Shown: in pieces, positions 2,839 to 4,664 of the stretch
How the letters are laid out: each line of letters starts with the position of its first letter
Numbering within the stretch: the stretch's first letter is position 1
Source of the DNA: Trichodesmium sp. MAG_R03
Lineage (GTDB): Bacteria > Cyanobacteriota > Cyanobacteriia > Cyanobacteriales > Microcoleaceae
NCBI GenBank assembly: GCA_023356535.1
Contig: JAKQYF010000021.1
Coordinates: 1-37,502, forward strand
Direction: 5' to 3'
DNA: 37,502 nt
The notes under the pieces: model-generated
Database searches by the model: none
Seen by the model: only the letters and a program-made list of their open reading frames with translations
Told to the model about the DNA's origin: nothing
Made by a program: the position numbers and the translations under genes

Positions 2839-3939
2839 ATGAAAATAGGTATTCCAAAAGAAATTAAGGATCAGGAGTTTCGTGTTGGATTAACTCCTGC
2901 AAGTGTTAGGGTCTGTACTGAAGCAGATAACCAGGTTTTTATAGAGACAGAAGCTGGTTTGGGTGCAGGTTTTAGTGATCATGATTATCTTCAAGCCGGC
3001 GGGCATATCTTATCAGATACTAGAGAGGTTTGGAATTGTGAAATGATAGTTAAGGTTAAGGAACCTTTACCATCAGAATATCAGTTTCTCAAATCAGGAA
3101 AAATACTATTTACTTATTTACATTTGGCTGCGGATCAGAAGTTAACTGAAAGGTTAATTGAAAGTGGTGTGATGGCGATCGCCTATGAAACGGTAGAGCT
3201 ATCTCACCACAGGCTACCTTTGTTAACTCCTATGAGTATAATAGCTGGACGTTTATCTGTGCAATTTGGGGCCAGATTTTTAGAAAGGCAACAAGGTGGT
3301 AGAGGTGTTCTATTGGGTGGAGTTCCTGGTGTTACCCCTGGTAAGGTTGTAATTCTGGGAGGAGGAATAGTTGGTACAGAGGCAGCTAAAATTGCTGTGG
3401 GCTTGGGTGCAAGAGTCCAAATTTTGGATATTAATTTGGAAAGGTTGGCTTATTTAGAGACTCTATTTGGCTCAAGGGTAGAGTTACTATATAGTAGTTC
3501 TTCTGCTATAGAAGCAGTAGTAGCAGATTGTGATTTACTTGTAGGGGCAGTTTTAGTTCCTGGTCGTCGTTCTCCAGTGTTAGTTCCTAAACATTTGGTG
3601 GAGCAGATGCGTTCTGGATCTGTAATTATTGATGTGGCTGTGGATCAAGGTGGTTGTGTGGAAACTCTATGTCCTACTTCTCATACAAGTCCTACCTATG
3701 TCGAATTAGGTGTCCTACATTATGGAGTACCTAATATGCCAGGAGCAGTTCCCTGGACAGCTACTCAAGCTTTGAATAATAGCACTTTGCCTTATGTATT
3801 ACAGTTAGCTAACTATGGTAGTAAAGCTTTAGAAATGAATCCGGCTTTAGCTAAGGGATTGAATGTTAAAGACCATGTTTTGGTTCATCCTGCTGTCCGA
3901 GAAGTATTTCCTGATTTAAGTAATAAAAACTCACTCTGA
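2839..3939 (+). CDS. ald: Alanine dehydrogenase
   Basis: The enzyme catalyses reversible NAD-dependent oxidative deamination of L-alanine to pyruvate and ammonia, linking nitrogen and carbon metabolism. The 366-aa product matches the family length. The N-terminal motif IPKEIKDQEFRVGLTP contains R15. K74 (KVKEPLP) and H95 (TYLHLA) fit the pyruvate-binding lysine and catalytic histidine of known alanine dehydrogenases. The Rossmann glycine motif VVILGGGIVGTEAA lies near residue 170, followed by DVAVDQGGCVET and the C-terminal signature NMPGAVPWTAT. The ATG at 2839 follows GGAG with about 8 nt spacing, so this start is well supported. It stands alone, divergent from murA. In diazotrophic cyanobacteria this enzyme has been tied to use of alanine after nitrogen fixation. 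That role is inference here. Confidence 0.94.
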   Translation: MKIGIPKEIKDQEFRVGLTPASVRVCTEADNQVFIETEAGLGAGFSDHDYLQAGGHILSDTREVWNCEMIVKVKEPLPSEYQFLKSGKILFTYLHLAADQKLTERLIESGVMAIAYETVELSHHRLPLLTPMSIIAGRLSVQFGARFLERQQGGRGVLLGGVPGVTPGKVVILGGGIVGTEAAKIAVGLGARVQILDINLERLAYLETLFGSRVELLYSSSSAIEAVVADCDLLVGAVLVPGRRSPVLVPKHLVEQMRSGSVIIDVAVDQGGCVETLCPTSHTSPTYVELGVLHYGVPNMPGAVPWTATQALNNSTLPYVLQLANYGSKALEMNPALAKGLNVKDHVLVHPAVREVFPDLSNKNSL

Positions 3940-4041
3940 AGAGGAGTAATAGTTTACCAAAAACCTTAATAAACCTTTTCAAAGCTCCTAATATGTCATT
4001 ATGTAACTTTAAAAAAGTTTGTCGAAAGATCCATCAATTCT

Positions 4042-4070
4042 TTGACAAAAAATATTAAGTCAAGTATAAT
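4042..4070 (+). promoter_or_regulatory. Perfect consensus sigma-70 promoter
   Basis: TTGACA at 4042-4047 and TATAAT at 4065-4070 are separated by exactly 17 bp, an ideal housekeeping promoter in both boxes and spacing. No ORF with a ribosome binding site follows, so it most likely drives a non-coding transcript that starts near 4077. Confidence 0.75.
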
Positions 4071-4076
4071 AACATG

Positions 4077-4370
4077 TGGCTAGTAACTTGTTTAACAAGG
4101 GAACACTCTCGCCTGGCCAAAAACTAAAATTTATCTTTGGATAAATGGTTGTAAGTTAAGGGACGTTAAATAATGGACAGTGAGACGCCACAGCGCAGAT
4201 TAGAGTAAGCTTATAGCTTCCAAGCTTTTAAAACTATGGGTCCTGTTGTTTGACAACCAGACAATGTCGGCAACAGCCATTGCTTTAACTGGCAATGCTA
4301 TACAGCACTCAAGGTGCATAGCTTTGAAGAGGTTAAATGTTACACTAAGTGTGGCTATTTAAGTTTTTTT
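4077..4370 (+). ncRNA. Candidate structured non-coding RNA of about 290 nt
   Basis: The transcript is bounded by the perfect promoter at 4042-4070 and the terminator at 4333-4370. Between them are several self-complementary stems: AAGCTT repeated at about 4207 and 4223, GTTGT-TTG-ACAAC at about 4248-4258, and CATTGC/GCAATG at about 4278-4298. There is no convincing ORF and no protein-like reading frame. I do not recognise tmRNA, RNase P RNA, SRP RNA or 6S RNA signatures. The ends are inferred from promoter and terminator positions. Confidence 0.5.
4333..4370 (+). terminator. Rho-independent terminator
   Basis: TTAAATGTTACAC pairs with GTGTGGCTATTTAA around a TAA loop (G-U pairs and one bulge). 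It is followed by GTTTTTTT at 4363-4370. It closes the transcript predicted from the promoter at 4042. Confidence 0.6.
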
Positions 4371-4580
4371 ATGGATGGTCAAATCTTCGATTTCCCAAAA
4401 CTTTTTCAGTACGAAATTTTACTACAACTTTCTGATTGATTCAGCAAACCCTAATTTAGGTAAAGTTGAAAGAATGGGAAATTACAAAGACAATATAGAA
4501 CAATCTTAGTTTTACTTATAAAAAAAACATTGTAATTGAGAAATTTGAATGGATAAGCAAAAATAAAAAGCTGTCACTTA

Positions 4581-4664
4581 GCGGAACTGGCGGAATTGGT
4601 AGACGCGCTAGATTCAGGTTCTAGTGTTCGCAAGGACTTCCGGGTTCAAGTCCCGGGTTCCGCA
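4581..4664 (+). tRNA. tRNA-Leu(CAG)
   Basis: The acceptor stem GCGGAAC pairs with GTTCCGC, with A as discriminator base. The anticodon stem CTAGA/TCTAG holds the loop TTCAGGT, giving anticodon CAG. A long variable arm (about 4625-4639) marks it as a class II tRNA, and the T arm CCGGG-TTCAAGT-CCCGG is perfect. CCA is not encoded. Confidence 0.95.

Follow-up and report, generated by a model that had tools for sequence, protein, structure and literature searches.

A probable stand-alone TnpB guide RNA carried by a non-autonomous IS607-family mini-transposon in Trichodesmium

TnpB guide RNAs are normally made from the tail end of the tnpB transcript. Mobile loci that carry only a guide RNA are dispersed in bacterial genomes in the form of HEARO or stand-alone IscB omegaRNAs; these differ from the locus described here in belonging to an IscB (HNH) system, and our Rfam scan of the locus matched no family. 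In IS607 elements, the reRNA scaffold includes the fixed base of the right flank, and ISXfa1 requires a pseudoknot (PMC10711439). Our locus resembles the reRNAs of IS607 TnpBs (ISXfa1 and the 'pro-Fanzor' IS607 elements; PMC10711439) in the succession of right end, fixed base and a variable flank as guide, and in the pairing of the tail with the 5' part of the scaffold. Additionally, the TnpBs of its autonomous relatives carry the DPG motif, a feature of the cyanobacterial IS607 'pro-Fanzor' clade (PMC10711439); their likeness to this clade is based on that motif, one of its two signatures. However, the mini-element lacks tnpB, has its own sigma-70 promoter and carries a new 5' domain in place of the tnpB-coding sequence, and its predicted scaffold is ~269 nt long, compared with ~150 nt for the ISXfa1 reRNA (PMC10711439).

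In the omegaRNA of ISDra2 TnpB, bases −5 to −3 pair with −105 to −103 in a pseudoknot (PMC10097598). Pairing between guide-adjacent bases and the 5' part of the scaffold, and several stems ahead of the right end, are common to both systems, whereas ISDra2 is a tyrosine-transposase (IS200/IS605) element whose omegaRNA overlaps tnpB, has a 116-nt scaffold and shows no sequence similarity to ours (PMC10097598). The RAGATH-18-derived reRNA is likewise a conserved structured RNA linked to IS607 TnpB, but it adjoins tnpB (PMC11061315), and the Rfam scan linked our locus to no family. Cyanobacterial MITEs, for example, those of Anabaena sp. 90 (PMC3542288), are also short multicopy elements without protein genes; they differ in being defined by terminal inverted repeats, with no guide RNA or conserved promoter reported. 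A literature search that covered few subscription papers returned no description of guide-RNA-only IS607 mini-transposons.

The window, that is, the whole 37,502-nt stretch of Trichodesmium DNA that was analysed, carries between ald and a tRNA-Leu gene what we consider likely to be such an element: a non-autonomous IS607-family transposon at 3943-4344 whose sole gene is a stand-alone, trans-acting TnpB guide RNA (omegaRNA/reRNA). This reading is drawn from sequence comparison. The features are as follows.

3943-4344, plus strand: non-autonomous IS607-family mini-transposon, ~402 bp (homology limits; empty site of the G187 copy in genome G075; absence from the ald-trnL spacer of five relatives)
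3943-4030, plus strand: left end common to autonomous tnpA+tnpB IS607 elements (69-77% identity to L036 1548-1637 and to L045)
4042-4070, plus strand: predicted sigma-70 promoter, TTGACA-17-TATAAT (12/12 match; conserved in three lineages)
4077-4345, plus strand: 269-nt RNA scaffold, a predicted omegaRNA/reRNA that includes C4345, the fixed base following the right end (291 bits with covariance model R1; covariation)
4083-4096, plus strand: 5' strand of closing helix P1 (GUAAC 4083-4087, UUUAAC 4091-4096), pairing with 4332-4337 and 4339-4343
4129-4146, plus strand: hairpin H2 (AUUUAUC/GAUAAAU), with compensatory changes in other lineages
4147-4178, plus strand: near-invariant core (consensus GGUCGUAAGUUAAGCGACGUUAAAUAAUGGAC) with hairpin H3
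4207-4219, plus strand: hairpin H4 (AAGCU/AGCUU), with a two-sided change in the window copy
4240-4262, plus strand: hairpin H5, where autonomous elements have a tnpB-coding hairpin; 2 of 9 pairs broken in the window copy
4265-4345, plus strand: right end, with former tnpB C-terminal codons, H6, H7 and, at 4330-4345, the guide-proximal tail (75-87% identical to right ends that overlap tnpB or lie downstream of it)
4279-4296, plus strand: hairpin H6, within the right end
4308-4328, plus strand: hairpin H7, within the right end
4339-4370, plus strand: 'terminator' of an earlier note on this DNA, straddling the right end of the element and a neighbouring dispersed repeat; absent from the family
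4346-4365, plus strand: would-be guide, ~16-20 nt, presumably copied from flanking DNA (variable sequence 3' of GTTGCAC; guide position in TnpB systems)

A search of the own genome with 4040-4375 yielded 16 matches, comprising the window copy, seven others near full length, and truncated or diverged forms; the eight near-complete copies, including window 3943-4344, share 80-89% identity. Matches were found in 15 of 59 related genomes and, in an order-wide DNA search, in 33 of 293 genomes, many of the latter being right-end matches only; plasmid and phage collections gave no match to the element. The earlier note, which described an unannotated RNA gene, missed this mobile-repeat nature: homology begins near 3943, only a few bases past the ald stop codon (3937-3939) and ~100 bp ahead of the promoter. 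At the other end, the copies diverge after GTTGCAC (GTTACAC in the window, ending at 4345).

The orthologous ald-tRNA-Leu spacer of five relatives lacks the element. This spacer is too diverged to show the exact joint of the window copy, and the evidence for precise insertion comes from a homologous copy elsewhere. Specifically, a ~330-bp form of this element occurs in family f14, in the genomes G115, G187, G210, G075 and G258. In G187, the filled site reads ...ACTTAGA, then the element GGTGCAACTATTAGCC...GTTAAATGGTGCA, then the flank CTGCAAATC..., and the empty site in G075 reads ...ACTTAGACTGCAAATC...; match coordinates place an empty site in G258 as well. The insertion was thus precise and without target-site duplication, as in the IS607 family, with one target base (C) following the right end, and the boundaries 3943 and 4344 were set by analogy with this site (target ...GA / element / C...).

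Over its first ~90 bp, the mini-element matches the left end of elements encoding a serine recombinase and TnpB, and the last ~80 bp match the DNA directly downstream of tnpB, or overlapping its end, in the same elements. The right end is partly still readable as the last tnpB codons (L026: LPATAITLTGDAIQIQG). Pfam assigned Resolvase/MerR and Cas12f1-like TNB domains to the proteins of the autonomous elements. Three intact elements of 1.83-1.85 kb with the same ends occur in G115 (tnpA and tnpB were read from two), and Candidatus Paraprochloron terpiosi (G050) holds both an autonomous element and a mini-element. Judged from these shared ends and the empty sites, the mobility and IS607 descent of the element are nearly certain.

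The own genome contains 71 TnpB-domain matches, of which the ones listed occupy short open frames; for tnpB of the same subfamily, only decayed or partial matches turned up there, and the TnpA relatives are mostly broken. With 486 contigs and 93% completeness, the assembly may lack an intact partner that the genome possesses; alternatively, the copies are perhaps orphans whose partner has already been lost from this genome.

Two further arrangements were observed among the copies. In contig C201 of G000 (L046:2143-3783), two copies stand in opposite orientation within ~1.6 kb, one of them just 71% identical. In G005 (L054:1787-2626), a copy and the tmRNA gene share a strand at a distance of ~50 bp, and two NsiR1 repeats are close by.

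The mini-elements have a promoter and a structured RNA where tnpA and tnpB would stand. The earlier note had called the promoter perfect and rare. Indeed, TTGACA-17-TATAAT at 4042-4070 matches the consensus at 12 of 12 positions and is the sole such site on both strands of the window, with 0.05 expected per window from dinucleotide shuffles. In Trichodesmium, Paraprochloron and f14, the spacer is 17 nt, the distance from the promoter to the first conserved RNA base is mostly 5-6 nt, and scores are mostly 10-12 of 12 (the best shuffled sites averaged 7.7 and reached at most 10). The sites of several Okeania-type copies are weaker, and the promoter geometry is preserved among full-length homologues from several cyanobacterial families. 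On this sequence evidence, the predicted promoter is real.

The internal stems that the note had pointed out are real as well and covary across homologues. A hand structure of nine helices was derived from consensus folding and checked on sequences outside its building set. On 24 sequences, 85% of its cells were paired, compared with 34-46% when the structure was slid along the alignment, and 21 pairs showed double changes, a count reached in at most 1 of 500 shuffles. A covariance model built from these 24 sequences found the unseen f14 RNAs at 159-181 bits, matching over the whole length of the model. With f14 added (alignment A3), 24 of 51 pairs were changed on both sides, in 92 cells against 30.5 (sd 4.0) after shuffling; A3 had been fitted to this structure and includes many closely related f14 rows, and the shuffle figures ignore the relatedness of copies and are not probabilities. 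H5 stands out in A3, with 8 of its 9 pairs changing on both sides, and P1 was paired in 89-93% of cells in alignment A1 and 94-96% in A3, with few double changes.

In the window copy itself, 46 of the 51 pairs are kept and five are broken, and two-sided compensation is seen three times; random changes simulated in its stems gave P 0.10 for the number of pairs kept, and its single-sequence fold is ordinary (z = -1.0). RNAalifold recovered only 12 pairs from the raw MAFFT alignment because hairpin lengths differ and decayed copies were included. Taken across the family, the promoter geometry and covariation make it very likely that the element holds a selected, structured RNA gene with its own promoter. 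The note's proposal of an unannotated RNA with its own promoter therefore stands in part, promoter and structure being kept across several cyanobacterial families, but the RNA travels as cargo within a mobile IS607-derived element and is no unique host gene.

The RNA extends to the transposon right end plus one fixed C, and the DNA that follows differs at every insertion. Its guide-proximal tail (GUUAAA.GUUGC) pairs with its 5' start (GUAAC..UUUAAC). Both traits are those of a TnpB omegaRNA/reRNA. The encoding of such RNAs by the 3' part of tnpB and the right end was not found, the element having no tnpB; only the last ~80 nt of the RNA derive from the tnpB end and right end. For this reason, we describe the RNA as a stand-alone variant that would work like a TnpB omegaRNA/reRNA and do not count it among the ordinary members. 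Immediately ahead of the right end of autonomous elements, a hairpin is formed by the tnpB codons for ARNIM(L/I)RAL, and changes between elements keep its pairing; the H5 hairpins of the mini-elements occupy the same place with unrelated sequence. The 5' ~160 nt, including the core 4147-4178, have no clear tnpB counterpart, and the model aligns loosely there, so this part might serve another purpose. Nearly every genuine copy has GA ahead of its left end, which could reflect a target-adjacent motif or the site choice of TnpA. Within the core, CGACGUUAAAUAAUGGAC (4161-4178) resembles the guide-proximal tail AGGUUAAAUGUUGCAC (4330-4345), an internal mimic of the right end.

In the model that we propose, transcription would begin near 4077 and continue past the right end into the flanking DNA, and the transcript would be trimmed to a ~269-nt scaffold and a ~16-20 nt guide taken from that flank. 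A TnpB from an autonomous relative would bind the scaffold in trans, and TnpA, also supplied in trans, would excise the element. After excision, the RNA-TnpB complex would cut the empty site (GA motif plus guide match), and repair from a sister copy would restore the element. By cutting and repair of this kind, the mini-element would exploit both IS607 proteins and ensure that it is retained. Counting against a guide function are the five broken pairs of the window copy and its lack of significant folding energy, and the decayed state of the only same-subfamily tnpB found in its genome.

The alternatives differ in what they let the RNA do. The earlier note had read the locus as a unique RNA gene with an intrinsic terminator at ~4370, and a hairpin and a T-run are indeed present by pattern. 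However, family homology ends at ~4345-4347, within the claimed terminator stem; the hairpin lies across the boundary of the element and does not occur in other copies, and the T-run belongs to a different dispersed repeat that starts near 4351. A 3' end near 4370 would thus be a chance junction of the right end and the neighbouring repeat, and we give this reading practically no credence. The note was right that a tRNA-Leu gene lies downstream (tRNA-Leu(CAG), 4581-4664). It had also held that a match to a decayed mobile element would speak against an RNA gene; the feature is indeed mobile, but its RNA appears to be kept by selection in the family. Derivation from IS607 ends, the many decayed or truncated copies and the absence of an intact partner tnpB in the own genome would all suit an ordinary MITE-like mini-transposon that is moved in trans by IS607 TnpA, its transcript being a functionless by-product or remnant. 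Transposition needs the ends only, yet the interior keeps its promoter spacing and compensatory changes across several families, which makes this unlikely.

A role as decoy or regulator, in which the RNA binds TnpB or TnpA (e.g., damping the autonomous elements) and is not a cutting guide, would fit a multicopy, well-promoted RNA with an extra 5' domain whose near-invariant core is absent from autonomous elements. We regard it as improbable, since conservation of the tail beside the guide, and of the fixed base that follows the right end, resembles that in guide RNAs. Less probable still is the capture of a host regulatory small RNA by an IS607 mini-element: the closing helix of the RNA uses the transposon right end itself, and transposon ends flank almost all copies. 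Two loci might be cited in its favour. In L037, a copy sits between glnA and an apcF-like gene and looked at first like the ancestral, host-gene origin of the internal cassette, but remnants of the left end show a decayed copy. In G244 and G158, of one genus, the RNA lies at the same place between accA and folE and could be a domesticated copy; there (L177:3440-3875 and L179:3314-3749, minus strand), it is ~170 nt longer with the same right flank, and perhaps represents a fixed or domesticated copy.

Known RNA classes did not account for the element. The earlier note had recognised no standard RNA family, and a scan against 4227 Rfam models agreed, with no match at the gathering score and weak matches at E<=10 that are due to chance. 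No group I intron/IStron or group II intron matched over the element. At the Paraprochloron locus L019, a group II intron ORF lies ~1.2 kb away on the other strand and was taken as unrelated.

Returning to the guide-RNA reading, we lean, with somewhat less assurance than for the window element, towards a dispersed class of guide-RNA-only cyanobacterial transposons that have their own sigma-70 promoter and a long omegaRNA, take their guide from the landing site, and borrow the TnpB (and TnpA) of Fanzor-like IS607 elements in trans. If true, such an element would be a parasite of an RNA-guided nuclease and would offer a route for guide-RNA and nuclease genes to part, as in CRISPR-Cas12. Were a guide RNA conserved, promoted separately and mobile by itself, it would show that this separation can precede CRISPR arrays. 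Moreover, guide-RNA mini-elements would explain some of the non-coding DNA of Trichodesmium, and their RNA would be a ready scaffold for TnpBs of the group held closest to eukaryotic Fanzors (PMC10711439).

Several minor observations concern neighbouring repeats and related elements. A mini-element in G013 (L022:1110-1531, plus strand) combines an IS607-like left end and the same right end with a different interior, and several kinds of guide-RNA-like mini-elements may exist. The repeat that abuts the window copy and supplies the T-run of the supposed terminator covers 4351-4428 and has dozens of copies at 75-90% identity in Trichodesmium/Okeania genomes. At the very start of the window, positions 36-114 match a group II intron domain (Rfam RF00029, 53.9 bits).
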